This document shows, in pieces, positions 3,185-31,499 of a stretch of 38,381 bases of DNA. The DNA lies in the IMG/VR virus record IMGVR_UViG_3300044953_000566, positions 1 through 38,381 of that record. One strand, 5' to 3'. Within the stretch, counting starts at the first letter, position 1. Every line of letters starts with the position of its first letter. The notes under the pieces are model-generated. The model worked only from the letters and a program-made list of their open reading frames with translations. It made no database searches and was not told where the DNA came from. The position numbers were made by a program, and so were the translations under genes. This stretch comes from a virus.

Positions 3185-4047
3185 TTTAACAAATTCAATA
3201 TATACCCATTAAAGTCTTTTCCAAAACAAAATGCATTATACCATGTGCTTTCGTTTGAAAGAATAGAACTCAGGTTCATTTCTTCACAATATCGTTTAAA
3301 CAGCTTGAAATCATGAGGTTGTTCAATTTTGAGCTGTTCTTTATACCAGCTCAATTCATCTGTGGTTGATGAATATTTATCTAATCGAAAAAGTTCATAA
3401 TTACGCTTAAACTGATCATTTTGTTCAGTGGTTGTCTGATATTTACCATTAAAATATTTTTCAATTTTTTTAGACCCCATACCAATTACACCAGGGACGT
3501 TATCAGACTTATCACCCCTAAAGCATTTATCAATTAAAAATCGAGTTAAAGGCACTTTAACAATTTCTTCAAAGTTTTTAACGTTGACTTCACGTTTGCG
3601 AATAGGATCATATACCTTGACATGTTCATTAATGCATTGATACATGTCTCGATCAACAGTAACGATGACTTTTTTACCTGGGCTTTCTTTCGATAAGAAA
3701 GCCATACAGTCATCAGCTTCTAAACGCAGCGGAAAGAAGTTTTTTACACCGAGTGAATCAAGAAGTTTCTTAATATAAGAGTTTTTTGCATGAACTTCAT
3801 CACTATACACTTTATCACGATTACCTTTGTAATCAGCAAACTGCTCTTTACGAACATTGGTGTTATTTTCGTGTTTTTCATCCCAGCAGCAAAAAATTTT
3901 ATCAGGTTTATATTTCTCTACATATGATTTAATCGCATTAATAAACATAAACACATGCAAAAAACTATTTTCTTGTGTTTTTGTTTGATTTGCTGCCCAA
4001 TAACAGCGATGCACTAGGTTATTACCATCTATAATAAGAGTTACCAT
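3181..4047 (-). CDS. rnh: 5'-3' exonuclease / RNase H, T4 Rnh-like (FEN family)
   Basis: At 288 residues it is near the 305 aa of T4 RNase H, which removes RNA primers and 5' flaps. FEN/PIN-domain metal ligands are visible: IIDGNN near the N terminus, RLEADD about residue 110, VTVDRDMYQ about residue 130, and GDKSDNVPG followed by GMGSKKI, the DNA-binding helix-hairpin-helix. It lies directly upstream of primase with a four-base overlap, so primer synthesis and removal are co-expressed. The start is the ATG at 4047, preceded by an AAGGG Shine-Dalgarno-like stretch. Confidence 0.88.
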   Translation of the reverse strand: MVTLIIDGNNLVHRCYWAANQTKTQENSFLHVFMFINAIKSYVEKYKPDKIFCCWDEKHENNTNVRKEQFADYKGNRDKVYSDEVHAKNSYIKKLLDSLGVKNFFPLRLEADDCMAFLSKESPGKKVIVTVDRDMYQCINEHVKVYDPIRKREVNVKNFEEIVKVPLTRFLIDKCFRGDKSDNVPGVIGMGSKKIEKYFNGKYQTTTEQNDQFKRNYELFRLDKYSSTTDELSWYKEQLKIEQPHDFKLFKRYCEEMNLSSILSNESTWYNAFCFGKDFNGYILNLLK

Positions 4048-4077: not shown

Positions 4078-5313
4078 TCAAGCTAAAAGTTGTTGCACAG
4101 GTTTACCTTTATCTGCAATCTTAAATGGTCTACCTTCAGGTGATATTACAACCTCATCCACTGGTAACCCTGCTGCAGCTGCAATAGTAGCATTAAAATC
4201 AGCTGGGCTTACAGGTGATTCAACTGCTCTCATACCCTTTTCATCAGATTTACCATATACTTGACCGCCTTTGATGCCAGCACCAATGAGAACACCACTA
4301 AATGCACCTGGGTGGTGGTCTCGACCGTTATTGATATTGATATTTGGTGTTCTACCGAAATCTGTTGCAATTACGATGAGTGTTTTTTCAAGAAGACCAG
4401 AAGATTTAAGATCTTCAATAAGGGCATTAACAGCTTGATCGAGAATTTTGAGTTTATTCTCAAGAGCTTCGAAGTTATTTACGTGTGTATCCCAACCACC
4501 ATCAGATACTTCGATAAACTTACAACCACCTTCTTGGATAAGACGTTTTGCTAAGCAAACACCCTGACCAAAACGGTTATTACCATATTTTTCTTTTGTT
4601 GCTTGATCTACCTTAGAAAGATCGAACATATCAAGATCTTTTGAGTTAAGAAGACGAATAGTTTGATCGTAAAACTCAGTGTATGACCGTTGAGCTGGGT
4701 TAATAATTTTATTTGCATTTCTTTCAAGCTTATCCAAGATCGTAATTCTCTTAGAGAACTTAGCAGCATCTTTAAGCTTGGTATTATCAAGCCCTCTCAT
4801 TGGATCCACAACTGGAATTGGAGAATATTTTTTTGGCATCCAACCAGAACCAGGGTGATCTGCACCACCACTGATTAATACGTTTTGTGGAATGACTTTT
4901 GGTTTGTTATCTTCGGTAAAATGACACATCCAAGCTCCCATATTAGGGTGAATAATTGTACCAATCTTCTTGAATGATGTTCTCTGTAAATACTGCGCGC
5001 CTGCATGATCACCTGTTGTAACCATCATAGAACGAACAACTGCCATCTTATCACCATGTTTAGCCATTAAAGGTAAGTGTTCGGAAATGTGATAATCTGC
5101 ATTTGTAGCAATGGAATTGAATTCACCTTTAACTTCAGCGTTAGTTTTTGGATCGAACGTATCTAAATGACTCATACCACCGTTCATAAATAGATAGATA
5201 ATATGTTCTGCTTTCTTACTAGCCGGTGCAGCTATAACATGTGGTAAAACGGTCACACCTAACCCAGTAGAAGCTAGGTTAAGTACAAAATTACGGCGGG
5301 TTAGTGTATTCAT
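4078..5313 (-). CDS. DUF1501 family exported protein (first copy)
   Basis: A DUF1501 protein, about 411 aa from the ATG at 5313 (MNTLTRRNF). I prefer this start because a twin-arginine signal (TRRNF plus a hydrophobic stretch ending near VIAAPA) is then N-terminal, and an AATAAATA octamer lies exactly five bases upstream. Family features include FMNGGMSHLDTFDPK, EVSDGGWDTHVNN, TDFGRTPNININNGRDHHP and GVLIGAGIKGGQVYG. DUF1501 belongs to the alkaline-phosphatase/sulfatase-like superfamily, but its substrate is unknown. It lies immediately downstream of the PSD1 gene, the arrangement usual in Planctomycetes and Verrucomicrobia. It is unexpected between phage replication genes. Confidence 0.88.
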   Translation of the reverse strand: MNTLTRRNFVLNLASTGLGVTVLPHVIAAPASKKAEHIIYLFMNGGMSHLDTFDPKTNAEVKGEFNSIATNADYHISEHLPLMAKHGDKMAVVRSMMVTTGDHAGAQYLQRTSFKKIGTIIHPNMGAWMCHFTEDNKPKVIPQNVLISGGADHPGSGWMPKKYSPIPVVDPMRGLDNTKLKDAAKFSKRITILDKLERNANKIINPAQRSYTEFYDQTIRLLNSKDLDMFDLSKVDQATKEKYGNNRFGQGVCLAKRLIQEGGCKFIEVSDGGWDTHVNNFEALENKLKILDQAVNALIEDLKSSGLLEKTLIVIATDFGRTPNININNGRDHHPGAFSGVLIGAGIKGGQVYGKSDEKGMRAVESPVSPADFNATIAAAAGLPVDEVVISPEGRPFKIADKGKPVQQLLA

Positions 5314-5317
5314 ATTG

Positions 5318-7102
5318 TTATTTATTAAATTTAAATTCAGAACTATTGATAAGAGCCCAGATGATATCATCATCTTGCACACTAACAAATGTGGCTTTTT
5401 CACCTATTGTTGAGGTTCTTGATAAAACCGACTTGAAAATAATCTCAATAGTATCACCGGGTGATTTACCAGCAATGTTTTTAGCGAGATATGTGTCTTT
5501 ATTAACAGCTATTTCAGCTAGCTGACCGTTCATGAATGAAATAATTTGAGTTACTGAACCTTCTCTTGAAGACGTATCAATAAGTTCACGATTACCACGG
5601 CCAAGTTGTTCTAGAATTGTATTAACTGGTCCATTATCGTTCACTTCAGATGCCCTAACTAGTGGGTAATTATGATATTTTGGCGCTGTTTCATATTTTG
5701 AACGCATGATTTTTTGATATTCTTCGTTTTTTGTTTTTAAACGATCAATAGTAAGATCTTCAATAGTATATTTCATTACTTTTACATACTCGTCTTGGAA
5801 TGTGAGTTTAAATGAATCAGGGCCATCAACTGCAATAGCTATAACTGAATCCCATATTTGTTCTGCTGTTAATCTTTGCTTCACAGGTCCAATAAAGACA
5901 AATTTATCAGAGCTAGAGTGCATACCATCATAAAGCTCGCGTTGGAAAAGCTTTGTATTCAGAAGCACATAAAGGAATTGTCTATTATCATAACCAACAC
6001 TAATCATAATCTTAGCGAGGGTGTTTATAAGCTCACTATCTAACTTATCACTATTATAAATGTTATCATAGTCATCAATGATATATTTACCAAAAACCCA
6101 TTTCCAGTAACGATTAACTATGTTTTTGGTAAATGTCGGGTGTTCTGGATTAACCAACCAAGCAACAACATCTTTTCTCATGTCGTCTTTGTTTTTGATT
6201 TCAGTCTTACCAGAAAGCACAGCAGGTATAACTGTATCAAAAGGCTTTGCATCTGTATACTGGTAGTCGTGAGGTAGTTTTAATTCACGCTTTTCATCTA
6301 TCTCAAGATTAGCTCTCATAGCAGCGATAAAGTTATTAATTGTGTTGTTCAAGCCACGATTCTTCATTGGATCAGCTTTAATCAAAGCATCAATTTCTTC
6401 TCTCAATGCTTTTTGACGAGCTGCAACCGCGGGGTCTTTGTCTTTACCACGACCTCTAAGTTCTACCTGATAAAACATAGCAGCCATCTTATAGAACTGC
6501 ATTTGCGTGAAGTCTTGGAATGGATCATCATGGCATTGTGCACATCCGATATCAGTACCCATAAACACTTTACCAGTACCAATGAGATTATCTAAAGGCA
6601 TTCCTAAATCACGGTAGAAATAACCGGTAGCTGGATTGTCATAATAAGATCTTGTTGATGTTAAAAGATCAGTTACAAATTTATTATATGGTTTGTTTGC
6701 AGCAATAGAATCTTTAATATAATCAATATAAGGGCCACCAGAAAAATTATTGATATCGGTTAATCTATCTCTTAATCTTAATGATTCAGCCCAAAAATTA
6801 AACATATGCGAGACATGCCCTGGGTGCTTTAATAAAAACTGAATTAATCCTTGTCTTTTATTCGGATCACTTACATTGGTAAACATTCTATACTCTTCAT
6901 ACGTTGGGTTGCGACCAACAATAGTAAGATATGCTCTACGAACAAATGTATCATCATTAACTCGATTCAAAGGTGCGATGTTTATAGCAGCATATTGCTT
7001 TTCTAATACCGAATCTACCCAACTACTATAATTATTGAGTTGCTCAACAGTAGCAGCAACAGTGGTTACCGCAAACAGTAGGATAAAAAATAACGTTTTC
7101 AT
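5318..7102 (-). CDS. DUF1549/DUF1553 (PSCyt2/PSD1) secreted protein
   Basis: A 594-residue protein with a clear N-terminal Sec signal (MKTLFFILLFAVTTVAA). The DUF1549 region follows (RRAYLTIVGRNPTYEEY, about residues 55-71), and then CAQCHDDPF at 187-195, a CxxCH heme-c-like motif. The C-terminal half matches DUF1553: NIVNRYWKWVFG, a PxL-type helix region, and the RLTAEQIWDSVIAIA segment. These families pair with DUF1501 in Planctomycetes and relatives; the biochemical function is not established. It is shorter than many bacterial homologues, with no N-terminal PSCyt1 domain. Upstream are ATTAAATA and an AAGGG ribosome site. Confidence 0.85.
   Translation of the reverse strand: MKTLFFILLFAVTTVAATVEQLNNYSSWVDSVLEKQYAAINIAPLNRVNDDTFVRRAYLTIVGRNPTYEEYRMFTNVSDPNKRQGLIQFLLKHPGHVSHMFNFWAESLRLRDRLTDINNFSGGPYIDYIKDSIAANKPYNKFVTDLLTSTRSYYDNPATGYFYRDLGMPLDNLIGTGKVFMGTDIGCAQCHDDPFQDFTQMQFYKMAAMFYQVELRGRGKDKDPAVAARQKALREEIDALIKADPMKNRGLNNTINNFIAAMRANLEIDEKRELKLPHDYQYTDAKPFDTVIPAVLSGKTEIKNKDDMRKDVVAWLVNPEHPTFTKNIVNRYWKWVFGKYIIDDYDNIYNSDKLDSELINTLAKIMISVGYDNRQFLYVLLNTKLFQRELYDGMHSSSDKFVFIGPVKQRLTAEQIWDSVIAIAVDGPDSFKLTFQDEYVKVMKYTIEDLTIDRLKTKNEEYQKIMRSKYETAPKYHNYPLVRASEVNDNGPVNTILEQLGRGNRELIDTSSREGSVTQIISFMNGQLAEIAVNKDTYLAKNIAGKSPGDTIEIIFKSVLSRTSTIGEKATFVSVQDDDIIWALINSSEFKFNK
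5319..5326 (-). promoter_or_regulatory. Late-promoter-like octamer AATAAATA, 5 nt before DUF1501 ATG
   Basis: On the minus strand AATAAATA is followed by ACAAT and the ATG at 5313. It overlaps the stop codon of the upstream PSD1 gene, so the DUF1501 gene may be transcribed independently late in infection. Confidence 0.5.
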
Positions 7103-8116: not shown

Positions 8117-8827
8117 TTATTGTGTAAGTGATGATAATATATATCTTAATTTAAGGTTGTCTTGAGTAAGATCAAATATTAAAACACCAAACTTGTTATT
8201 CACAGATACTTTTACATTTTCAGCGTTAATAAGTTTAAAATTATCAAAACTAACTGGTAGAATTTTTAGTTCATCACCTTGACAATTTTTACCAACAGTC
8301 AATTGAAACGAGTCAGTATTATGCCTCGCTTTATCAGTTAACTCACACTTAACCACACCATCTTCCTGATAGAAATAAATCTTATTTGTTTCAGTTGTAA
8401 ATGTAGATGCTTTGTTAATTTTTGCAAAATCATCTTTTGTTAGTTCAAAAGAGAAAGATGTTTCAAACCCGTTTATTTTTTCAGGCTTAATGGGAGATGG
8501 TACAAGAAAATCATCTTCGAATAGATGATATTTAAATTTAATTGCAGGTGATTTATACTCTAAGTAGTTTGGACCAACATTTAAGTTAAAATCATCTGAT
8601 TCAATACAATCAAGTACCCGGTTCAGCTTTTTTAAGTCGGGTATATTTAACGATCTTTCGAATTCATTCGAAAGGTTTAGTATAGAGTATAGGATCAGGG
8701 TGTTGTCCGTCGATGTTACTATTGTTGACAACCGGTCCTTCTCCACCTTCATGATGCACTGATCGTTTATCTTCGAGATTGAGTTTAGAAATTTTTCGAT
8801 TTGATTTTTTTTGAACTTTAATGTCAT
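8117..8827 (-). CDS. 45: Sliding clamp, T4 gp45-like
   Basis: About 236 aa from the ATG at 8827 (MTLKFKKNQIEKF), near the 228 aa of T4 gp45; an upstream in-frame ATG at 8845 is the alternative. The order of beta strands and the ending (KFGVLIFDLTQDNLKLRYILSSL) are those of phage clamps, which form a trimeric ring around DNA, tether the polymerase and activate late transcription with gp55. No single catalytic motif exists, so the call rests on overall pattern, size and position next to gp32. The 5' end overlaps the upstream gene by about 160 bases in another frame. Confidence 0.8.
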   Translation of the reverse strand: MTLKFKKNQIEKFLNSISKINDQCIMKVEKDRLSTIVTSTDNTLILYSILNLSNEFERSLNIPDLKKLNRVLDCIESDDFNLNVGPNYLEYKSPAIKFKYHLFEDDFLVPSPIKPEKINGFETSFSFELTKDDFAKINKASTFTTETNKIYFYQEDGVVKCELTDKARHNTDSFQLTVGKNCQGDELKILPVSFDNFKLINAENVKVSVNNKFGVLIFDLTQDNLKLRYILSSLTQ

Positions 8828-9188
8828 ATGCTGTAAATATTTCAACTAACTTACTAAGGTTTGATTCTATACCTTTTAATGTGGCTACCAATTCATTAGA
8901 ATCAACCAAGTTTACCTGACCACTTTGTTGTTGTGGTGATGATGGCGGTGGCATCGGTGATGGTGGTGGTATAACATAAGGTAAATTAGCCGCATTATCT
9001 GGGTGAGGTTGGTGGGGAGGGAGTTGAGGACCTCTCAACTCCCTCTCAAACAAGTTCTTTACATGGTTACTAGTAGGCTGTAAATTAGTTGAAATACCAA
9101 CTAAATTTTGATCTAATTTTTTTGTTTCACCATAAACGGCACCTAACAGCCCCAATAAAGCGTTACGTTGTTCGATCTCCTGGTTCAT
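8664..9188 (-). CDS. Hypothetical proline-rich protein overlapping the clamp gene
   Basis: A 174-residue protein lying between gp32 and the clamp. The N-terminal 50 residues are helical (ALLGLLGAVYGETKKLDQNL). Residues about 55-88 are a Pro/Ser/Gln linker (IPPPSPMPPPSSPQQQ), followed by a helical segment (LVATLKGIESNLSKLVEIF) and a charged His/Asp-rich tail. The last roughly 55 codons overlap the start of the clamp gene out of frame, a long overlap for a phage. It starts three bases before the gp32 stop boundary, so it belongs to that operon. Family unknown. Confidence 0.55.
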   Translation of the reverse strand: MNQEIEQRNALLGLLGAVYGETKKLDQNLVGISTNLQPTSNHVKNLFERELRGPQLPPHQPHPDNAANLPYVIPPPSPMPPPSSPQQQSGQVNLVDSNELVATLKGIESNLSKLVEIFTAYDIKVQKKSNRKISKLNLEDKRSVHHEGGEGPVVNNSNIDGQHPDPILYTKPFE

Positions 9189-11348: not shown

Positions 11349-11870
11349 TCAACTTGCGAACATTGAAAGATTACTCAAAGACTGACTATCAACTCCGATA
11401 TTTTCAGCGTCATCCGATTGTGTAATTGTCAATGTTGAATAATCAATCTTCATTGCTGTTGTGGTGCCTCGTGCTCCGAATCGGTTTTTCATCATACCCA
11501 TTCGAATAAGTTCAAGCTCACGATCTTCATCATTTTGAAAGATTGATACAATAACATCAGCCGTAGCGGCTAGTCCAATTGAATTTTTAGTTAAAATATC
11601 ATTACAATAAAATAAATTATCACCTGTAACGCTAATATCTATTGTTTCTAGCTCACCGAGCTCTTCTATAGAAGATATTTCATCATTATAATCTATCTGT
11701 CTGTCTGTAATTATATTTTTATCTTCTTGCTCTTTGATAATTTTCTTGATAGTATTAACATACTCATCAACTGTCAATTGATTATCAACTAACCCTAAAG
11801 TTGACATCAGTTCAACTTTTCTCTTAATAAAATTTGTAAGATTTGATTCTCTATCGGTCTGCATTTTCAT
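11349..11870 (-). CDS. 41: Replicative helicase gp41, C-terminal piece with N-terminal split-intein half (IntC)
   Basis: A 173-residue protein in two parts. Residues 1-96 end in an intein C-terminal domain (SVTGDNLFYCNDILTKN, block F/G), with catalytic Asn96 and Ser97 as the +1 residue. Residues 97-173 continue gp41: SIGLAATADVIVSIFQ, then MGMMKNRFGARGTT, the DnaB-like C-terminal motif with arginine finger. The complementary N-terminal piece with IntN lies upstream at 12009-13412. The penultimate intein residue is Lys, not the usual His. Residues 1 to about 55 precede the recognisable IntC and resemble nothing known to me. Confidence 0.85.
   Translation of the reverse strand: MKMQTDRESNLTNFIKRKVELMSTLGLVDNQLTVDEYVNTIKKIIKEQEDKNIITDRQIDYNDEISSIEELGELETIDISVTGDNLFYCNDILTKNSIGLAATADVIVSIFQNDEDRELELIRMGMMKNRFGARGTTTAMKIDYSTLTITQSDDAENIGVDSQSLSNLSMFAS
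11583..11870 (-). other. Split intein C-half (IntC) of gp41
   Basis: Codons 1-96 of the C-terminal helicase ORF. The core beginning near EISSIEELGE resembles the published phage gp41-type split IntC halves. It ends in Lys-Asn before Ser+1. Confidence 0.8.
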
Positions 11871-12008
11871 AAATTTGTTTGATTAACTCAGTTGGAGTTG
11901 ATTACACATATATAACTTTATCTGTTTGTTTTTTTACCTCACCTCTTGAAAAAAAATATCAAACTCCCCTTTTTATACACTGTACATATGCTCGTTTACT
12001 CTGGTTTG
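11871..12008 (-). other. 138-nt spacer between the two gp41 cistrons
   Basis: Non-coding spacer containing a purine-rich stretch (AAGAGGTGAGG on the minus strand) and several T-runs, with stops in all relevant frames. No endonuclease ORF or clear terminator is present. Confidence 0.6.
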
Positions 12009-13412
12009 TCATACACTAGATTTTAGTGTGGGGTTTGCAGATACAGTAGATGTTCTTACATTTAATTTGTCTGCAACAGATAACCCGTCTGTGATAGATA
12101 GCCTACCACGATTAGTTGGAAACTTATGATCACCACTAACCACAATTTGCTTACCTGTTTTGGTTGTAATTTTATAACATTTTTTGATGTTTTTGTGGTG
12201 GACTTGTCGTACGGTTTTATAACCATCATTAGCTATAATTTGATCACCGGGTTTGATATCTTTCATTTTTACAAAACTACCATCAACTAACTGTACTAGT
12301 TGATTAACTTCAATACACTCACTAATCGTGTTTAGATCTGGATTAGCAATATCGAACCCAGATCTGTTTAATTGGGTTGCGCTTATGACAGGGCAGTTAA
12401 AAATATACGACATTGCACGTATCTGTTCTGTGACATGCTTAATTCGTTCATAGCTATTATTACCAATTGGTGAGTGTAATAGATTCAGATAGTCTAGTAC
12501 AATAGCGTCAATCTTCAGGCCTTTATCTTCTATTTTCTTAATAAACGCTTGAATCTGCCTTGGTGTAACAGTTGCTGGTGGAAACTCTTTAATTAGGATT
12601 TTACTCGTTGGTGTGTTCTTTTTGATTTCATCAATTGCGTGTTTTAGAGCTTTGGTCTCCAAATGAAGCGTTTTCATCGGTATTTTACTAACATTTGTAC
12701 AAATACGCTTAGCATATAAAATTTCTGGCATTTCTAACGTTATAAGCAATACCGTTTTACCTTGGTTAGCTATGTTAGCAGCAATATTGCCCAAAAATAT
12801 AGATTTACCAATGTTAGTCTCACCAGCAAACACATACAATGCTCGACCATCTCGTTGAAACCCACCACCAATATAATCATCCAACCAAGGCCATTCACTA
12901 GGTATTGTTTCTTGAACAAAAAGGATATCTTTAATAACATCGTCAATCTTGTCATACAGGTCTAACCCCATGTCAGTCTGCAATGAAATATTGCAACTCT
13001 TTTCAAACTTATCTAAAATGACCGATGTATCAGCGTTACCTTTTGAAACTTCCGAAGCAATATCCAATAACGTGTTAAACACAGCTTTCTCTTTAAGAAA
13101 CTGCTCTGTGTTGGTATATAGTTCATCATTGTTGTAGTTAGTATCTAGCGTTTTAAACATCACTAGTACATTTTTGAACGAATCTTTGATTATATCATTA
13201 ACACAATATTGCTTTATCTCAGTTAGGTTAGGTAGTTCATTGCGCGCATCGTAAAACTGCTTAATGATGCTAAAAATTTGCTTGTTATCTTTGTTCTTAA
13301 AATATACATCCTTGGTAAAATCGATAACACTTGCAAGATACACCTTGTCTGTGCAACACTTATATAAAAAGATGTTTTCGAAAAAGTCTAGATCAAGTTT
13401 CAACATTAACAT
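12009..13412 (-). CDS. 41: Replicative helicase gp41, N-terminal piece with C-terminal split-intein half (IntN)
   Basis: A 467-residue ORF. Residues 1-365 are a T4 gp41/DnaB-type helicase: Walker A AGETNIGKS (196-204), Walker B IDAIVLDYLNLL (301-312) and SATQLNRSGFD. At DLNTISE|C the helicase stops and a 102-residue IntN begins with Cys366. It contains block A, then KPGDQII, and a block B with SGDH (position 61-64 of the intein). The two exteins sum to about 442 residues against 475 in T4. The fork helicase can be complete only if the halves trans-splice with the product of 11349-11870. Confidence 0.9.
   Translation of the reverse strand: MLMLKLDLDFFENIFLYKCCTDKVYLASVIDFTKDVYFKNKDNKQIFSIIKQFYDARNELPNLTEIKQYCVNDIIKDSFKNVLVMFKTLDTNYNNDELYTNTEQFLKEKAVFNTLLDIASEVSKGNADTSVILDKFEKSCNISLQTDMGLDLYDKIDDVIKDILFVQETIPSEWPWLDDYIGGGFQRDGRALYVFAGETNIGKSIFLGNIAANIANQGKTVLLITLEMPEILYAKRICTNVSKIPMKTLHLETKALKHAIDEIKKNTPTSKILIKEFPPATVTPRQIQAFIKKIEDKGLKIDAIVLDYLNLLHSPIGNNSYERIKHVTEQIRAMSYIFNCPVISATQLNRSGFDIANPDLNTISECIEVNQLVQLVDGSFVKMKDIKPGDQIIANDGYKTVRQVHHKNIKKCYKITTKTGKQIVVSGDHKFPTNRGRLSITDGLSVADKLNVRTSTVSANPTLKSSV
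12012..12317 (-). other. Split intein N-half (IntN) of gp41
   Basis: 102 residues from nucleophile Cys to the stop codon, with block A (CIEVNQLVQL), KPGDQII and block B SGDHKFPT. It is the size of known split IntN halves and has no endonuclease domain. Confidence 0.85.
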
Positions 13413-13493: not shown

Positions 13494-14753
13494 ATGTATA
13501 ACAGACGCGATGCATTAAAAGTCGGTGTAACTAGTTGGATCACACTACATCAAATGCTGAGATCACAGGAGAATGACAAACCAAAAGCTAATTCCGTTGT
13601 ACAAATCTATTTACCTGGTGGGATGGCTCATCAAGAATCGTGGGATTATAAGATAAACGGATCACCCGAATATAGAGGTCCTTTTGGGGGTATTAAAACT
13701 AAAATCGACGGTGTGTATTTTGGAGAACTTCTTAAAGAAACTGCTAAGATTGCTGATAATCTTACTGTGATTCGCTCTGTAACGCATGGTGAAGCTGCTC
13801 ATGAGAGAGGCACACACAACATGTTAACAGGCTACAGGCCATCACCAGCACTATCTTACCCATCATTTGGTAGTGTTATTAGTCATGAATTAGGAAATCG
13901 TAACAATTTACCATCATATGTGTTAGTTCCCAATCAATTTGCACCAGAAAACGGCACTGGTTATTTATCTACTAAATATGGTCCGTTTGCTTTAGGTGCA
14001 AACCCAGAAGACCCCGGGTTTGTTGTTAAAGATCTCAATACCCCAAAGGATATTTCCGATAAACAATTTGATAGACGCAAAACTCTTCTTGGTGCTGTTG
14101 ATGATTTATTCAAATTGAGAGAATCTAACGTTGATGGTATTAAAGCAATGGACTCTTTCTATGATCAAGCATACGCAATGATTTCATCTAAAGAAGCTCG
14201 TGAAGCTTTTGATTTATCCAAAGAACCAAATAGTGTGCGTGATGCATATGGTCGTAATGCAGCTGGTCAACGGTTACTTTTAGCACGTAGATTAATTGAA
14301 GCAGGTGTTAGAATGGTAACGGTGACATATGGTGGGTGGGATCACCATTCGAATATTAAGCAAGCTTTTGAATCTAATATGGTAAACTTTGATAAAGCTT
14401 ATGCATACTTCATTACAGACTTAAAACAACGTGGATTATTGTCATCTACCCTTGTGATGGTTTCGTCTGAGTTTGGCCGTACACCAAAAATTAACGCTAC
14501 CAATGGTAGAGATCACTGGCCTCGTGTATTTTCTACCGTTTTAGCGGGAGGTGGTATTAAAGCTGGGTTTGCTTACGGTACTTCTGATGCTTTAGCAGCT
14601 GAACCTGATGAAAACCCAGTAAGTCCTGGTGAAATAGCTGCCACTCTTTATCATTTAATTGGTATATCACCAAGAAAGAAGCTTATGACATCAGATTTAA
14701 GACCAGTTGAGGTGGTTTACGAAGCAGATCCGATAGAAAAGATCTTAGCATAA
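13494..14753 (+). CDS. DUF1501 family exported protein (second copy)
   Basis: A 419-residue DUF1501 protein on the opposite strand from the first copy and clearly diverged from it. It begins MYNRRDALKVGVTSW, a twin-arginine signal, then YLPGGMAHQESWDYK. Later family blocks are TYGGWDHHSN, SSEFGRTPKINATNGRDHWP and FSTVLAGGGIKAGFAYG. The signal implies export by Tat and the conserved His/Asp blocks suggest an intact active site, though substrates of this family are unknown. It has no partner PSD1 gene here. It is flanked by the gp41 operon and a bidirectional terminator, and a late-promoter-like octamer precedes it. Confidence 0.88.
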   Translation: MYNRRDALKVGVTSWITLHQMLRSQENDKPKANSVVQIYLPGGMAHQESWDYKINGSPEYRGPFGGIKTKIDGVYFGELLKETAKIADNLTVIRSVTHGEAAHERGTHNMLTGYRPSPALSYPSFGSVISHELGNRNNLPSYVLVPNQFAPENGTGYLSTKYGPFALGANPEDPGFVVKDLNTPKDISDKQFDRRKTLLGAVDDLFKLRESNVDGIKAMDSFYDQAYAMISSKEAREAFDLSKEPNSVRDAYGRNAAGQRLLLARRLIEAGVRMVTVTYGGWDHHSNIKQAFESNMVNFDKAYAYFITDLKQRGLLSSTLVMVSSEFGRTPKINATNGRDHWPRVFSTVLAGGGIKAGFAYGTSDALAAEPDENPVSPGEIAATLYHLIGISPRKKLMTSDLRPVEVVYEADPIEKILA

Positions 14754-20128: not shown

Positions 20129-21094
20129 TCAACCAAATAAATCAAACAATTCTGTTTGCACATTATCTTTTGGTTTTCTAATTCGCCAATTTACTGCTTC
20201 ATAAAAACGTTCAATTGCTTGGAATAAAATCTTATCAAACATTGTATCATAGTCGATTTTAAAATACTGATTAAACTCTTCAGGGAATTTATTTTTAAAA
20301 GCTATAGATTCAATCATATATTTGTTTGGTGTTTCAACATATAGATATCTTACCTTGTCACCTGAAGAAAGCTTTTCGTATTTCTTATCGAGCTTCAATT
20401 TATCTAATAGTAGATTATGGTAATAACTTGATTTGACATGCAATGGCATGGACTTTGTTGTGTCGAAGTCACTACATTTAACTGCATACTTTTCATACCC
20501 TTTCAATCCCATAACAAATGCGACATCTTGAATCGGAAGTCCTTTGAAAATATCATACGTCTCATTCAGTACTTTATTTGTTTCAGCTTGAGATTTTGTT
20601 AACAACATCGTCTCAATTATTTTTTTTGCATATGGCTTAATTGCATTAGGCATTGTTGTTCTTACAACTTCAACACCTGTATACTTGAATTTATCACATG
20701 CAATACCTTCATCATCTAAAACATGCAACACATATCGTTTTTTCTGCAAAAATAGACCAACATCACCGATACTTTCACGTTTGAAAACAAATCTACAATC
20801 TTTAGAATTTAAAGTTTTTGCACCCCAGACTTTAATCTTTGAATTAAGATAGTTTTCAATATTTTGTACGATTTCAAGAGTATCTTTAGTCAGCTTACCA
20901 GCATCATCTGTGAATAACGTCTTATTATCTTTATACAAAGACTTGATAGAAACGTAAGAGCTATTATGTACAAGAATGTTATTAGCGTAAAACCATGGCT
21001 GATCCTGATCTTCCATTTCCATGTCATACACATATTCATCTTCAAATGGATCTATTTCTTCAACTGTAAATTCTTCAAACTTATTTTTTATCAT
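20129..21094 (-). CDS. 43: DNA polymerase gp43, C-terminal piece with IntC
   Basis: A 321-residue protein. Residues 1-44 are a split-intein C-half (EYVYDMEMEDQDQPWFYANNILVHN) with catalytic His43-Asn44 and Ser45 at +1. The extein begins SSYVSIKSL, exactly what should follow the motif C sequence YNDTD at the end of the N-extein in 21272-22215. It goes on through the palm and thumb: FVFKRESIGDVGLFLQKKRYVLHV (the KKRY motif), TGVEVVRTTMPN, a helical thumb region, and a C-terminal NVQTELFDLFG, which fits a clamp-binding peptide. Without trans-splicing, neither piece has both catalytic aspartates in a complete palm. Confidence 0.9.
   Translation of the reverse strand: MIKNKFEEFTVEEIDPFEDEYVYDMEMEDQDQPWFYANNILVHNSSYVSIKSLYKDNKTLFTDDAGKLTKDTLEIVQNIENYLNSKIKVWGAKTLNSKDCRFVFKRESIGDVGLFLQKKRYVLHVLDDEGIACDKFKYTGVEVVRTTMPNAIKPYAKKIIETMLLTKSQAETNKVLNETYDIFKGLPIQDVAFVMGLKGYEKYAVKCSDFDTTKSMPLHVKSSYYHNLLLDKLKLDKKYEKLSSGDKVRYLYVETPNKYMIESIAFKNKFPEEFNQYFKIDYDTMFDKILFQAIERFYEAVNWRIRKPKDNVQTELFDLFG
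20963..21094 (-). other. Split intein C-half (IntC) of gp43
   Basis: 44 residues with block F and G ending LVHN before Ser+1. The canonical penultimate His is present, unlike in the other two split inteins here. Confidence 0.85.
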
Positions 21095-21271
21095 ATAAAA
21101 ATCTTTTACACTGTTCGACTACTGACTCTGGGTTATTATCAAAATCACTTTCTTAAATCACCAACACACTATATCCCCGTTCTCTAATTATACACTCTTG
21201 GTTTTGAATATCAACCTTCCAAATCTGTTCAGCTGTTAGTGTGTTTTACCATATTGATTCGAGTTATCATG
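21095..21271 (-). other. 177-nt spacer between gp43 IntN and IntC cistrons
   Basis: An AT-rich spacer with stops in the relevant frames. I see no ORF or clear structured element in it. Confidence 0.5.
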
Positions 21272-22215
21272 CTAGCAATCACCATGCAACTCTACACATT
21301 TACCGGTTGGTGATGCTGCATCTAACGTCTTTATAAGAATTTTATCACCTGGTTTATATTCTTTAGGTGAAATTCTTATAACAGTGTCGTTTCGAAGTAC
21401 CATCAACCCATGATCTTCTGTCATAATAACCTCATCACCATTGCTTGTTTTAATCTTAAACCGCCGCTTAGTAACTCGATGACGGATTAATCTTTTAACC
21501 GGTGATTCAACTACACATCTAGTGTTAGTATTATATGTTGATGTTCTAATATTCTTAATATCTATTGTCTCATGACCATGTTTAGATGTTACGATATTAT
21601 CATTTGCATACCTATTATATAAATCACCGATAGCAATATCCACACCATTTATACAGACTGTCGTATCATACGGGACCGAATCTGTATCATTATAAATGAT
21701 TGCTTCTTCAAGTTCTTTGTCTGTAATGTTTGGTAACTTTTCTTTTAAATATTCCTTAATAAGTGTGTTTGATTCTTTAATCACCGCTTGACCTGTCAAT
21801 GTTACAGATGATGCAATATCATCATCACCAATAGGTGCTTGCTTGTTACCAAAATCATTTATCTTCGTTTCAACTCGTTTAGATTAAAACCGCTTTCGCT
21901 GCTATATATTTCTATATAGATGAGACTATATCATCACCACTCAAGGTGTCTCCCGTTTCGATACACTTGTATCTACTCGCTTTCGCGATAGTCGTTGAAC
22001 GTTCTCTTTTCAGAGCTTCGCTGCTGATTGCCATTTTAAAGGTTTTCCAGCAATTAGAGAGATTTTTCAACACCAATTACTTGATGAAGGGACCGTTAGG
22101 TTAATCCGTAGCAACTATTGATTAATACCTTAACACACATTTGATGTGCATTAAGCTGATCAACTTTATCTTTAAGTTCCTTTCTCCTAAATTCTAGTTC
22201 TTGTAGTCTTGTCAT
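21272..22215 (-). CDS. 43: DNA polymerase gp43, middle piece (43B), two exons, with IntN
   Basis: Exon 1 is 22104-22215 and exon 2 is 21272-21855; splicing out 248 nt gives an unbroken 231-residue frame. Residues 1-37 carry the fingers helix and motif B, VKVLINSCYG. After the junction the protein reads YFGNKQAPIGDDDIASSVTLTGQ, collinear with T4 gp43 around NSLYGALGN and FGQ. Motif C YNDTD is at residues 93-97. Ser98 then opens a 134-residue IntN with block A (SVPYDTTVCIN) and block B (MTEDHGLMV). The ATG at 22215 is preceded by an in-frame TAG, so this is a separate cistron from 43A, not readthrough. Confidence 0.85.
21275..21676 (-). other. Split intein N-half (IntN) of gp43, inserted at motif C
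   Basis: 134 residues beginning with nucleophile Ser immediately after YNDTD, the Pol-c insertion site used by several polymerase inteins. Block B TEDH and KEYKPGDKILI are visible. No endonuclease domain is recognised. Confidence 0.85.
21856..22103 (-). ncRNA. Group I intron in the DNA polymerase gene, 248 nt, ORF-less
   Basis: All four conserved core elements are visible on the minus strand: P AATTGCTGGAAAACC (22041-22055), Q CAATCAGCAGCGAAGC (22015-22030), R GTTCAACGACTATC (21987-22000) and S GATGATATAGTCTC (21922-21935). The GACTAT of R pairs with ATAGTC of S to form P7. The 5' site is placed after GGAU, which can pair with GUCC in the intron start to give the required U-G wobble of P1. 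The 3' site is after the G at 21856. These borders restore the frame through motif B. AT-rich and GAAA-loop hairpins near the 3' end fit P9 stems. Confidence 0.9.
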
Positions 22216-22310
22216 ATGCTATATAATAGTGTTGTTTTTTCAAAAACCAACCAAAATAACCATAAATACCAATCTTATAAACGTCTAAAAAATTTATTAC
22301 ATAATCTTAA
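22216..22310 (-). other. Gap between polymerase pieces 43A and 43B
   Basis: A 95-base AT-rich region with stops in frame, too short for a group I intron, joining two halves of the fingers domain. It may carry a ribosome site for 43B. Confidence 0.6.
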
Positions 22311-23993
22311 TTATACATTAGGGTAAGATTGCTCTCGCTTCAATTTTTTAATTTCATTTTCAATTTCACTCAACTTCACTTTATATTTTTGAAGTTCTTT
22401 CTTAATTTCAACACGCTTGTTATAAAAGTGATCAACAAATAACGGTACGACCCCTTTAAACTTTTGAGTGAATAAGAAGTTAGCTTTTGTTATCGCTAGC
22501 TCTTCAGCTTTAATTAACTCACCAAAACGTTCCTTGGTAAAGTTGAGAGTTTTACCACTTACATGTCTAATTGTAAACGTACCATCATCGTTTTTAATAA
22601 ACTTACCAACTTTTGTTTCAGGTGACAAATTGAGTGAAATCATCACATTTGGGTACAGTGAATTAGCGTCAAAAGAAATTACTTTCTCTTGAAACCCACT
22701 ACGGGGTTCAGCAACATATGCACCTGGGTTTGTACTATCTGGATCATTACGAACGAACGTCGAAATAATCTTACCACCCTCACGAGACTTAATACATAAA
22801 GCTCCATTGATAACAGATAAAGTACCCATTGCTTGTTCAAATGTACACAATCCTGCATAAGATAACATCCTCAATAGATTTACATATTGCAACTTTTCTT
22901 CAAGTCGAACAACAATGTTAACGTCTTGAATGTTATAATCAATAAATGTATCCCAGTCTGTATCGGTCAATTGAGCTAATGACATACCATTCAACTCGAC
23001 TTTCTTTTCACCAAGCTCAATTTCACCAATATTATCAAGCTTATAGCTGTCACGTTCTTTAAAACAAAATCGCTTGTAGATATCTAAGTAATCAAGAATA
23101 GAAATACCATCGATGTAATAACGACGTTGTTGTTTACCAAATTTACCGATAATGTCTCTGTAATGCACATTACCAAGTGGTGACATTTCTTTAGTATATT
23201 CTTCACCTAAGATTCGTGAGCAACGATTAATAATATAAGGAATATCAAAAAATTCTGAGTTCCACCCTGACATAATATCAGGATAATCTTTCTTGAGATA
23301 ATCAATAAACTTTATAAACAACTCCTTTTCATTTTTACAATGAACGTATTTTACTGATTTATTAGAACCAGTGTAAGGGTTAACTCCAAAAGTATTAAAG
23401 CTTTTAGTTAAACTATCATAACATGTAATAATAGTCACTTCATGAGTTGGGTCTTCTGGATTCGGGAACGATGTATGTTGTGAGTAACACGACTGGTTAT
23501 AATTACACCATAGTTGTTTTTCTTCATCCCATACTTCATAATCAGCAGACATTTTATTATTTCTGAATGTTTTAAAGTCTACAATTTGTTCTTCGGTTGC
23601 CTTTTTTCTAATTTTTATTTTATGGTCACCTTTATAATAAAGTGTATCTGTTTCAATATCTAAAAAACAAATCTTAATCGGATGCTGAGTAAATTCTACA
23701 GTTTCATTTTCTTTCCAAAATGTATCTAAAAGATATTGCTGAACAGGTGGTAGGTTTTCAAATACTCGACGAATACCCCCATCACGTAAAAATTTATTCC
23801 GCTCATAACTATTTCGGAATACTTTCTTCTTTAATTTTGTATTGTAAATTGAGGTATACTCACCTTTTGAATCTTCTAGATACAAATATGGATCATGAGA
23901 TACAGTATACCTCACTCGGTTACCATCTTTATCCCATGTAAAGAGTTCTACACACCTGTTAATATTGTTATAATAACAATTACGATACGACAT
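22311..23993 (-). CDS. 43: DNA polymerase gp43, N-terminal piece (43A)
   Basis: A 560-residue family B polymerase N-terminal and exonuclease region. Exo I is FLDIETD (catalytic 112-114), Exo II is SGWNSEFFDIPYI and Exo III is DYNIQDVNIV. The first palm motif, SFDANSLYPNVM, has its metal-binding Asp at residue 442. The ORF stops in the fingers (KLSEIENEIKKLKREQ), before motif B. Motif B and motif C are in the next two cistrons. Aeromonas T4-like phages have a comparable two-part gp43 (43A/43B). Here the fingers break adds to an intron and a split intein. Confidence 0.92.
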   Translation of the reverse strand: MSYRNCYYNNINRCVELFTWDKDGNRVRYTVSHDPYLYLEDSKGEYTSIYNTKLKKKVFRNSYERNKFLRDGGIRRVFENLPPVQQYLLDTFWKENETVEFTQHPIKICFLDIETDTLYYKGDHKIKIRKKATEEQIVDFKTFRNNKMSADYEVWDEEKQLWCNYNQSCYSQHTSFPNPEDPTHEVTIITCYDSLTKSFNTFGVNPYTGSNKSVKYVHCKNEKELFIKFIDYLKKDYPDIMSGWNSEFFDIPYIINRCSRILGEEYTKEMSPLGNVHYRDIIGKFGKQQRRYYIDGISILDYLDIYKRFCFKERDSYKLDNIGEIELGEKKVELNGMSLAQLTDTDWDTFIDYNIQDVNIVVRLEEKLQYVNLLRMLSYAGLCTFEQAMGTLSVINGALCIKSREGGKIISTFVRNDPDSTNPGAYVAEPRSGFQEKVISFDANSLYPNVMISLNLSPETKVGKFIKNDDGTFTIRHVSGKTLNFTKERFGELIKAEELAITKANFLFTQKFKGVVPLFVDHFYNKRVEIKKELQKYKVKLSEIENEIKKLKREQSYPNV

Positions 23994-28564: not shown

Positions 28565-29410
28565 TCAACATTCTCTTATATTTTTTTCAGAAAATTGTAT
28601 TTTTTCGCGTTGGTAAATGTTTTTTCTAGCGTCACCGTGTTCATTCCCGTATCGTAAATTGTCAACCAAGTCGAAAATATATAGTTTTGATTTGGAGGGA
28701 TGTAATCTCAGCCCACGTCCAATAGATTGCACGGTACGAATAAAGGCCTTACCACCAGCTGCAAACATGATTAGGTGTAAATTTTTGATATTTACACCTG
28801 TTGAAAATATAGAACTTAACGCAATACATACGACATTGTTGTTTTTTTCTATGATTTCCTTGATCTTTTCCCGCTCCTCCACCTCAACTTTTCCTTGAAT
28901 AAAGAAAACCTTTTTGGAAATACCTTTGAGATGTTCCATTAAAATTTCCCCATGTCGTATATGGTTGATCAAAATGAGGATATTGTTAGGAAATTTTTGA
29001 GATATTTCCTTAATTGCATTGTTCCTAAAATTTGATTCGTAGAGGAAATTAAGTTCATCACGGTAGTTCATTTTAGGAACAGGCTTGTAATTGATGTTAA
29101 TACACTTAACTTCTGCGTTTGTAAGGTAGTTTTCCTGTCGTAATTCGTAAGAACTCTTTTCATATATAACAGGTCCAAGCTTTCCTAAAACAGACCAACG
29201 GTCTCCATTTTTATCAGGAATAGTTCCTGTAAATCCATATTTGTGTGAGGTTAGTATTTTGGAAATAAGTTTTCCTGATACATCTGCTTTCATTTTATGG
29301 CAGTTAGAAGCAACTATATTACCACTAACAATATAGTTGTGGTCCGTTTCAATGTGGAGATTATAAACAATCTCCGGTTTATCTATTTCCGTTTTTGTTA
29401 TTAATCTCAT
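28565..29410 (-). CDS. uvsW: UvsW helicase, C-terminal piece with IntC
   Basis: A 281-residue protein. The first 36 residues are an intein C-half (VYNLHIETDHNYIVSGNIVASN) with catalytic Asn36 and Cys37 at +1. The penultimate residue is Ser instead of His. The extein resumes as CHKMKADVSGK, completing the DExH motif II, then YGFTGTIPD (motif III-like), ILILINHIRHGE, and the C-terminal helicase motifs FSTGVNI and QSIGRGLRLHP. With the N-terminal piece it makes about 471 residues, close to the 503 aa of T4 UvsW, a branch-migration helicase. Confidence 0.9.
   Translation of the reverse strand: MRLITKTEIDKPEIVYNLHIETDHNYIVSGNIVASNCHKMKADVSGKLISKILTSHKYGFTGTIPDKNGDRWSVLGKLGPVIYEKSSYELRQENYLTNAEVKCININYKPVPKMNYRDELNFLYESNFRNNAIKEISQKFPNNILILINHIRHGEILMEHLKGISKKVFFIQGKVEVEEREKIKEIIEKNNNVVCIALSSIFSTGVNIKNLHLIMFAAGGKAFIRTVQSIGRGLRLHPSKSKLYIFDLVDNLRYGNEHGDARKNIYQREKIQFSEKNIREC
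29303..29410 (-). other. Split intein C-half (IntC) of UvsW
   Basis: 36 residues ending Ala-Ser-Asn before Cys+1. The HNYIV segment is block F. It begins only seven bases after the stop of the IntN ORF. Confidence 0.8.
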
Positions 29411-29417
29411 AATATTA

Positions 29418-30410
29418 TTATTTGTGCTTCACGGTTGTGGTATTAGGTGATATAATATTATCATCCTTGGTTATTTCATCTGCTCTTACCCAACCTCTAT
29501 CGGTCAATAGTTTGTGGTTACCTGTTAGTTTGAGTATTGTACCGTCATCAAATACCATTTCATACATTTTTTCACTTTTACTGTTGGTTAAGTTTTTGAA
29601 AACATTAACGACCACATCTTCCTTAACCTCGTTAGTTTTTTCATCGTAATTGAGAACAATATCCCCAATTTTGATGTTTTGTATCTGACGCCAACCTGTT
29701 GGTGTTAAAACATCTGTTTCACCATCAAAACACTCATCTACAACAAGCAAATCAATATATTTTAACCACTCATTTTCCTCAAATTTTCGTTGTAATATAC
29801 CAATGTTGACTACAAAAACATTGGATGTTAAATCTGGTTCATGTTTTCCTGTCCATTTTGTTGGTTTAAACGTCACACCATATGAAAGGAAATCATTATA
29901 TGTTTGTGTGACTAGCCCTAAGTCTGGTACAATCACCAGACATTTGAATGTTGTCTTTTTGGTAGAATTTAAGTAATAATTTTCTATTAAAGTTGCGGTT
30001 GTAATAGTTTTACCTGCTCCTGTACCCATCAAACATATACCACGTCCAGTTTTAAGAGCCAACTTTACGACATCTTCTTGATATTCTCTTAACACGTTAC
30101 CATTAGCTTTAAGATTGTTGTAATATGTAAAGTCATACTGTTTTGTTAGGTAATTTGAAAGTACGGGTGTAACAGAAGTTGAAGGAACAACAATATTACA
30201 CTCATGAAGGTATTTGTTAATTTCCCAATACATACCTACCTCACACTGACCTGTAGGTGTTATGACATATTTTCTGCTAGGAATAAATTTATTCCTTCGC
30301 TTCATAAAAGAATGACCTTCATATGGATAACTAAAGTGTTCTCTTACTTGTTTAAACAATTCAGGTTCACATTGAAATATTAGTTTGTTATTTTTTAAAT
30401 CAAAAATCAT
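29418..30410 (-). CDS. uvsW: UvsW helicase, N-terminal piece with IntN
   Basis: 330 residues. The helicase N-extein (1-226) includes LREYQEDVVKLAL, Walker A MGTGAGKTI (128-136), CLVIVPDLGLVTQTYNDF and ends at LLVVDE in motif II. The intein starts with Cys227 (CFDGETDVLTP) exactly between DE and CH of the DExH box. It is a 104-residue IntN with GDIVLNYDE and block B TGNHKLL. The stop codon is separated from the IntC ATG by seven bases and the two ORFs are in different frames. Together the intein halves total about 140 residues, a complete mini-intein without endonuclease. Confidence 0.9.
   Translation of the reverse strand: MIFDLKNNKLIFQCEPELFKQVREHFSYPYEGHSFMKRRNKFIPSRKYVITPTGQCEVGMYWEINKYLHECNIVVPSTSVTPVLSNYLTKQYDFTYYNNLKANGNVLREYQEDVVKLALKTGRGICLMGTGAGKTITTATLIENYYLNSTKKTTFKCLVIVPDLGLVTQTYNDFLSYGVTFKPTKWTGKHEPDLTSNVFVVNIGILQRKFEENEWLKYIDLLVVDECFDGETDVLTPTGWRQIQNIKIGDIVLNYDEKTNEVKEDVVVNVFKNLTNSKSEKMYEMVFDDGTILKLTGNHKLLTDRGWVRADEITKDDNIISPNTTTVKHK
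29421..29732 (-). other. Split intein N-half (IntN) of UvsW, inserted in the DExH box
   Basis: 104 residues from Cys to the stop codon, with blocks A and B (GNHK). Inserted between the DE and CH codons of motif II. Confidence 0.85.
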
Positions 30411-30825: not shown

Positions 30826-31086
30826 ATGAAATCAACTTTTAAAGCTCACTTTTTACAACTACTTGATGAAGAAAATGTTGCAGGTGGTGCAGCATCTGTA
30901 TTTGGAGCAGGTGTAGTTGCAGATGATGGTATATACGATCCAAATGCTAGTAGATTTACCTCAAATGATTCTATATATGCTCCTGGTGACGCAAGATTAC
31001 CTAAAGCTTTGAGTGGTGTGCAACGCAGAGCTGGTATAAGTAAAAAGCGACACAAATTTAAAAAACGCCACCGTAATAAATTATGA
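30826..31086 (+). CDS. Small late protein with capsid-targeting-like N terminus and basic tail
   Basis: 86 residues from the ATG at 30826 (MKSTFKAHFLQLLDEENVAGG); an ATG at 30808 adds six. The opening follows the pattern of T4 internal-protein targeting peptides, with LDE matching the I/L-x-E prohead-protease site. The middle is Gly/Ala/Ser-rich and the last 20 residues are very basic (KKRHKFKKRHRN), suited to binding packaged DNA. Its end overlaps the GIY-YIG gene by four bases. A head-internal DNA-associated protein is the most likely role. Confidence 0.6.
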   Translation: MKSTFKAHFLQLLDEENVAGGAASVFGAGVVADDGIYDPNASRFTSNDSIYAPGDARLPKALSGVQRRAGISKKRHKFKKRHRNKL

Positions 31087-31499
31087 CAGATTTTGGACAT
31101 TGGATTAGTGCTGCATCATTACCTGAAACACCATATGGTTTCATTTATAAAATAACTAATCTCATATCAAATAAATGTTATATTGGTAAGAAGCAAATGG
31201 TATCGGTTAAAAAGATGCTACCACTTAAAGGTCGTAAAAACAAAAGACATAAAGAAGTAGAAACAGATTGGCGTGTATATACTGGTTCGTCAAACGAATT
31301 AAACGCAGATATTGAAAAACACGGCAAAAAAAATTTCAAGTTTGAAATTCTCAGGTTTTGTAATAGTAAGTGGGAACTTGCTTATTATGAAACAAAAATT
31401 CAATTTGAATCAGATGTATTAGTATCTGAAAACTTTTACAACGGTATTATTAACTGTCGTATTGGAAAAGCGCCAAAAAGTCATATAATACAAGAATGA
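31083..31499 (+). CDS. GIY-YIG family endonuclease
   Basis: 138 residues. The GIY-YIG core is YGFIYKITN followed by CYIGKK, then WRVYTGSSNELNADIEKHGKKNF, with a catalytic Glu candidate in the later ELAYYETKIQFE segment. Phage relatives are free-standing homing endonucleases or Seg-like nucleases. It overlaps the genes on both sides by four bases, so it has been fixed into the operon rather than sitting as a mobile insertion. No DNA-binding tail is seen. Confidence 0.8.
   Translation: MTDFGHWISAASLPETPYGFIYKITNLISNKCYIGKKQMVSVKKMLPLKGRKNKRHKEVETDWRVYTGSSNELNADIEKHGKKNFKFEILRFCNSKWELAYYETKIQFESDVLVSENFYNGIINCRIGKAPKSHIIQE

Follow-up and report, generated by a model that had tools for sequence, protein, structure and literature searches.

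The T4-type DNA polymerase gp43 is known in two pieces from Aeromonas phages: the gp43A and gp43B chains of phage 25 are purified together and show polymerase activity (PMC2988022), and the gene of phage 44RR2.8t (44RR) is likewise divided into gp43A and gp43B. Another precedent is provided by split inteins residing in family B DNA polymerases (PolB), i.e., those of Aes, CP21 PolB1, LCGC14, GOM-OPS-1 and phage MIJ3. The split PolB inteins of T4-like phages have been characterised and are in use as trans-splicing tools (PMC12707363), and the T4-like and MIJ3 examples possess an N-half of 115-120 amino acids (aa) and a C-half of 39-46 aa (PMC12707363, PMC6892783). The occurrence of an intron together with an intein in one phage gene has been described for the ribonucleotide reductase of SPbeta and the terminase of Campylobacter phage IBB_35 (PMC3322345). 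Here we analyzed a 38,381-base viral metagenome record (IMGVR_UViG_3300044953_000566, in the following referred to as the window), a fragment of a T4-like phage genome which carries the open reading frames (ORFs) 43A, 43B and 43C. We consider it very probable that the three ORFs represent a single gp43 (family B) polymerase gene that has been fractured at three places by mobile elements, by a break in the fingers, a group I intron and a split intein, and that is still functional.

The window shares the position of the break with 44RR2.8t and, by literature description, with phage 25; unlike the window, 44RR2.8t has neither intron nor intein, and its 43B is continuous across motifs B and C. The intein of the window resembles the known split PolB inteins in the length of its halves, its location in PolB, Ser1 and Ser+1, but differs in that the endonuclease is reduced to a relic and the N-half bears cysteines. 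SPbeta and IBB_35 share both element types within one gene; however, the gene is a different one and there is no additional two-chain break. A search of annotated phages with the N-intein led to the Aeromonas phages Aes508 (JN377894) and Aes516 (JN377905), Tulanevirus, whose GenBank records list, as in the window, gp43A, a gp43B1 'including group I intron and N-intein' and a gp43B2 with the C-intein; the annotated intron was confirmed by Rfam. In contrast to the window, Aes508 has kept an endonuclease at both places, one of the GIY-YIG type between 43A and 43B and a Vsr-like one within the intein. In addition, as we read its exon ends, the Aes508 intron is located one codon downstream of the window site; it shows only distant similarity to the window intron, and the identity over the intein region is about 30%. 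The polymerase of Tenacibaculum phage PTm1 similarly consists of a 43A piece, 43B with an N-intein, a Vsr endonuclease and a C-intein with 43C, but lacks an intron in 43B and has two other ORFs, one of them DUF7487 endonuclease-like, in the 43A/43B gap. The same full combination of break, intron and split intein was also identified on a second metagenomic contig, L093. An earlier interpretation based on the sequence alone (the sequence-only reading) had regarded the three-way combination as unusual; this is true in part only, as exactly this set was already annotated in GenBank for Aes508 and Aes516. In the literature searched, no paper discussing break, intron and split intein in combination was found. 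The full combination is not new, and what we add is the repeated association of intron and break, together with a series of stages in endonuclease decay.

That the three ORFs encode a T4-type gp43 is indicated by the motifs DANSLYP, KVLINSCYG and YNDTDS, all of which were found, by matches of 43A and 43C to Pfam and PHROG families (phrog_262 DNA polymerase, 5e-114 for 43A and 2e-48 for the 43C extein), and by an intact homologue that matches RB69 gp43 at 3e-66. All elements proposed by the sequence-only reading were re-located on the minus strand, at the coordinates it had given, by motif, Pfam, Rfam and comparison to relatives: exonuclease and motif A reside in 43A (PF03104, PF00136, DANSLYP), motifs B and C in 43B, and the remaining palm and thumb in the third ORF (PF00136), and an intein half (PF14890) directly follows YNDTD at the exact YNDTD-SSYVS empty site. 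Megablast against phage records returned no near match. Viral contigs scanned with 43A yielded 74 loci, and the census comprised 103 distinct related gp43 loci. In the closest ones (L004-L006, L011 and L070; 90-98% identity in parts) gp43 is a single uninterrupted ORF, as it is in more than 80 distinct genes overall, and about a dozen more are broken by an intein only. The close relatives carry NSCYGYFGNK and YNDTDSSYVS uninterrupted and exact in one ORF, by which the joints of the intron (NSCYG-YFGNKQ) and of the intein are fixed exactly, and all three interruption sites are empty in intact relatives at exactly the predicted joints. Identical residues are shared by intact relatives across 43B exon 1 (LNAHQMCVKVLINSCYG). 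A further insert of about 58 aa was observed in the exonuclease domain of 43A after FLDIET (about 23660-23480, minus strand), which is absent from close relatives such as L006 and has a similar counterpart in the distant L156.

The intron in 43B scored 98.6 bits (E 1.7e-24) against Rfam RF00028, for which the gathering threshold is 50 bits. The 43B frame stops at once inside the intron, and joining of U22104 to A21855 results in KVLINSCYG-YFGNKQAPIG in frame. In the window intron, the P1 helix contains a U.G at the 5' splice site, the internal guide sequence is GUCC and the last nucleotide is a G; the U.G of P1 and the final G were likewise present in all 7 other homologues checked, and an alignment of 8 homologues displayed compensatory changes in 25 of 61 predicted pairs. 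By score, P1 U.G, terminal G and exact exon joining the element corresponds to a group I intron, and self-splicing is predicted. Thus, the 248-nucleotide (nt) group I intron of the sequence-only reading was recovered, with an empty site in relatives. Its proposed position immediately after motif B holds in so far as the intron adjoins the 'YG' of the motif, but it sits within the next codon and not past the whole motif.

At motif C, the YNDTD end of exon 2 runs on as the N-half of an intein, and the next ORF opens with the C-half, in which VHN precedes SSYVS. Blocks A, B, F and G, Ser1, TxxH, the C-terminal His-Asn and Ser+1 of a split pol-c intein are all present across the two ORFs. The PDB intein 9hth aligns over both halves, and homologues of the N-half are present in L058, L061 and L067. 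Trans-splicing is predicted by analogy to relatives of this class, which are active (PMC12707363). The sequence-only reading had correctly recognized the split halves but missed that the 177-nt gap between them holds the last 52 codons of an endonuclease, with a stop where relatives have Trp. This relic was the sole significant match in the window to our own hidden Markov model (HMM) built from 8 intact endonucleases, and phrog_22677 matches both the relic and the intact endonuclease at the same C-terminal positions (302-350/353). A plain tblastn with one endonuclease missed the relic, and a profile search was required.

The intact endonucleases at the intein site end in a conserved D-Y-W-H region, and their phage homologues are annotated as Vsr endonucleases. 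In L067, the polymerase with the N-intein is followed by a free-standing 341-aa endonuclease and by the C-intein with the remaining polymerase; the same order was found in L142, L144, L145, L151, L153, L164, L167 and L203, the last of which ends inside the endonuclease. L067 and about nine other loci match in this order (N-intein, endonuclease, C-intein) the class of fractured genes with a free-standing endonuclease that was reportedly described by Dassa et al. in 2009, whereas the window has lost the endonuclease. A longer relic with 95% identity to L067 is present in L093, the two intein halves nearly abut in L141, and a single mini-intein, fused in cis, occurs in L058/L059/L061, L152 and L156. 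As only the relic with its stop is found between the halves in the window while the endonuclease is intact in L067 and others, the window represents a late stage of endonuclease loss in which the split intein was kept. The split would have originated by insertion of an endonuclease gene into the intein, followed by decay to the present 52 codons.

The remaining interruption separates 43A, whose end lies at the fingers hairpin tip, from 43B. It lies between the two helices of the fingers and between motifs A and B, and the two pieces have separate starts, as in the gp43A/gp43B two-chain polymerases; by alignment, the break in the 44RR gene falls on the same point of the fingers. In intact genes, a short linker is found here, and each of the window pieces bears extra residues of its own, so that no conserved polymerase segment is missing. 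The gap at this place amounts to 4 nt in L086/L124, 16 nt in L058/L059/L061, 227 nt in L093 and 95 nt in the window. A six-frame translation of the window gap searched for endonuclease relics revealed none, and the Seg endonuclease of Aes508 gave no match to this gap. In the L093 gap (reverse complement 3663-3889), an antisense reading frame stays open for about 67 codons; it gave no convincing match in PHROGs or phage records. A seeming insert between 43A and 43B in L156 was rejected, as the gene is one ORF with a fused intein. Most starts among 43A, 43B, the 111-aa ORF, UvsX and QueC were not preceded by a clear Shine-Dalgarno sequence, and a TATATA-like AT-rich stretch occurs before many of them.

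Strong purifying selection acts on each of the three coding parts. In comparison to L006, the ratio of nonsynonymous to synonymous substitution (dN/dS) was 0.042/0.89 = 0.047 for 43A, 0.007/1.06 (ratio 0.007) for 43B exon 2 and 0.031/0.28 = 0.11 for 43C, and dS is lower in 43C, which points to a recent recombination event close to the intein. In 43A, 19 amino-acid changes are unique to the window and 11 to L006, with 20 versus 15 unique changes at fourfold sites, indicating no clear acceleration on the window branch; none was seen for exon 2 and 43C either. The polymerase and splicing residues are all retained in the window. Production of an active polymerase would then proceed in several steps. 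43A would be translated separately, and the intron would excise from the 43B RNA, joining NSCYG to YFGNKQ. The spliced 43B RNA would give rise to a short protein with the intein N-half at its end, while 43C would be translated with the C-half in front. Upon assembly of the halves, trans-splicing would join YNDTD to SSYVS and restore motif C, and the resulting C-terminal half of the polymerase would pair non-covalently with 43A via the two fingers helices, as has been reported for Aeromonas phage 25. The anatomy and such an assembly by RNA splicing, protein trans-splicing and association of 43A and 43B, as envisaged by the sequence-only reading, are well supported by the exact empty sites, the intact splicing motifs, the purifying selection and the recurrence on an independent contig.

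Three interruptions within one essential gene and an adjoining degraded endonuclease could also be the signs of a decaying, non-functional polymerase gene in a phage that relies on another polymerase, and the window is a fragment with the remaining genome unseen. We regard this as unlikely, given the strong selection in all three parts without an excess on the window branch, the complete set of catalytic and splicing residues, and the same architecture on the independent contig L093 and in the cultured phages Aes508/Aes516; in addition, the related contigs of 155-197 kb contain one family B polymerase gene each. Even less probable is that bypass or frameshifting during translation joins 43A and 43B, rather than the two pairing as separate chains. 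The position of the break inside a continuous helical hairpin and the lack of a Shine-Dalgarno sequence before 43B would be in line with this; however, such a sequence is also missing before other window genes, which have the AT-rich leader in common, there are extra residues on both sides of the break, and the genes of 44RR and phage 25 are broken at the same place with separate starts. Translational bypass was rejected as the gap lengths and frame relations differ among the homologous loci. An assembly error that put unrelated pieces together deserves the least credence. The locus is known from a metagenomic contig that was not re-sequenced, but compared with intact relatives the junctions are those of exact insertions, and the pieces follow each other in the same order on independent contigs of other samples and in the isolates Aes508/Aes516. 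Neither of the two observations that the sequence-only reading had named as fatal to it was made; the near-complete relatives examined showed a single gp43 gene, the window itself being a 38-kb fragment.

Several points nevertheless weigh against a functional three-part polymerase. The dN/dS values average in the time before the gene was broken, and a second polymerase may lie elsewhere in the genome from which the window derives. The N-half of the intein has a divergent C-terminal tail, and its fit with the C-half is predicted. An AlphaFold model of an intact relative was poor overall (mean pLDDT 57) and too weak for a fold search; the fingers position of the break therefore rests on the alignment and on a locally confident, continuous helical hairpin of this model into which the break falls. 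Finally, that splicing and assembly take place is inferred, whereas the computational analysis established the anatomy of the locus, the exactly placed empty sites, the endonuclease relic, the purifying selection, the recurrence on a second contig and the annotated precedent.

Break and intron were found to travel together. The 43A/43B break was present in 7 of 7 loci with the intron and in 0 of 96 without it (Fisher p = 5e-11, a value that ignores relatedness). In the extein tree, genes with intron and break fall on at least three lineages, each beside relatives without intron or break, and, given the starred branches, the state shared by the window and L093 must have been placed separately at least twice. 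The last 10 residues of the 43A tail in the window have BLOSUM scores of 23-30 with the tails of other broken genes and of 3 with the close intact L006. This association, the scattered lineages and the similar 43A tails suggest, as a hypothesis, that break and intron have probably spread horizontally as a cassette. The break can also occur without the intron, as is the case in 44RR.

Introns of the same family were also identified in a glycosyltransferase-like gene of L009, L076 and L077 (the latter two near-identical), in each case with a DUF7487 endonuclease-like gene directly upstream of the intron; about 100 intronless loci of this gene, several of which are overlapping contigs, have neither the intron nor the DUF7487 gene. 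The gp43 intron of the window is nearer to the L009 copy (86%) than to the other gp43 introns (74-80%), indicating that the intron also moves between genes. Elsewhere, the 43A/43B gap is occupied by the GIY-YIG endonuclease in Aes508 and by the DUF7487 protein in PTm1. Intron and break would most likely have arrived as one cassette, with an endonuclease formerly residing in the gap. More specifically, the fingers break and the intron about 110 nt downstream could constitute one mobile cassette whose spread among distant T4-like phages was driven by collaborative homing, with the endonuclease located in the break. We propose this tentatively, rating its chances at somewhat below even, and the cassette model is kept as a hypothesis because no endonuclease relic was recovered from the window's own gap. 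In a stronger form, the break may have been selected as it allows production of 43A from unspliced RNA.

Table 1. Features of the fractured gp43 locus and of the related intron; coordinates refer to the window unless a locus is named.
Feature	Coordinates	Strand	Evidence or remark
43A, 560 aa, N-terminal half of gp43 with exonuclease and motif A	22311..23993	-	PF03104 1.1e-16, PF00136 7.7e-12
43A/43B gap, 95 nt, 43A stop to 43B start	22216..22310	-	
43B exon 1, ATG start at 22215, second fingers helix, motif B KVLINSCYG	22104..22215	-	
Group I intron, 248 nt, without ORF	21856..22103	-	RF00028 98.6 bits
43B exon 2 extein, ending in motif C YNDTD	21680..21855	-	98% identity to uninterrupted L006 gene
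N-half of pol-c split intein (Ser1 ... TEDH block B)	21275..21679 (with stop codon 21272..21679)	-	PF14890 1.5e-9
Endonuclease relic, C-terminal end of EDxHD/Vsr-like homing endonuclease	21087..21242	-	own HMM E=2.4e-12
Split intein C-half (block F YVYDMEME, block G FYANNILVHN)	20963..21094	-	
43C extein, rest of palm and thumb, begins at Ser+1 after YNDTD	20129/20132..20962	-	PF00136 3e-6
Intron in glycosyltransferase-like gene	L009 6721-6974; L076, L077 about 8660-8905		site between NYLA and DYSGCG; empty in window copy

The gene order on the minus strand is T4-like (UvsW, gp47, gp46, the glycosyltransferase-like gene, 43A, 43B, 43C, a 111-aa ORF and UvsX). The UvsW-like helicase gene (28565-30410, minus strand) is also split by an intein, with the N-part at 30410..29418, the C-part at 29410..28565, the insertion site between DE and CH, and a gap of 7 nt without an endonuclease. 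Close relatives lack the intein at this site, among them L076/L077 with 96-97% identity. Just upstream of this gene, a SegE-type GIY-YIG endonuclease gene is located on the plus strand (31083-31499), and a similar match occurs upstream of UvsW in several relatives. A gp41-like DnaB helicase gene (11349-13412, minus strand) is an apparent third fractured gene: its N-terminal ORF (13412..12009) ends in an intein N-half (junction ISE/CIEV), and an ORF at 11870..11349 resembles the C-half (CNDILTKN/SIGL). The window further carries DUF1501 and PSCyt2/PSD1 (DUF1549/DUF1553) genes at 4078-7102 (minus strand) and 13494-14753 (plus strand), families which we take to be associated with Planctomycetes and which may hint at the host. 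As DUF1501 is conserved in long relatives, a chimera is unlikely.

Taken together, the loci provide a graded natural series for one essential enzyme, which leads from intact genes through inteins split with an endonuclease, a decaying endonuclease and a naked split intein to the fused mini-intein, with or without intron and two-chain break. By this series, it becomes directly testable how splicing elements are lost from, or persist in, a replicative polymerase, and new natural split inteins are supplied. A candidate cause for two-chain gp43 is suggested as well: if break and intron indeed form one cassette, the two-chain polymerase would be a lasting footprint of intron mobility and not an independent accident.

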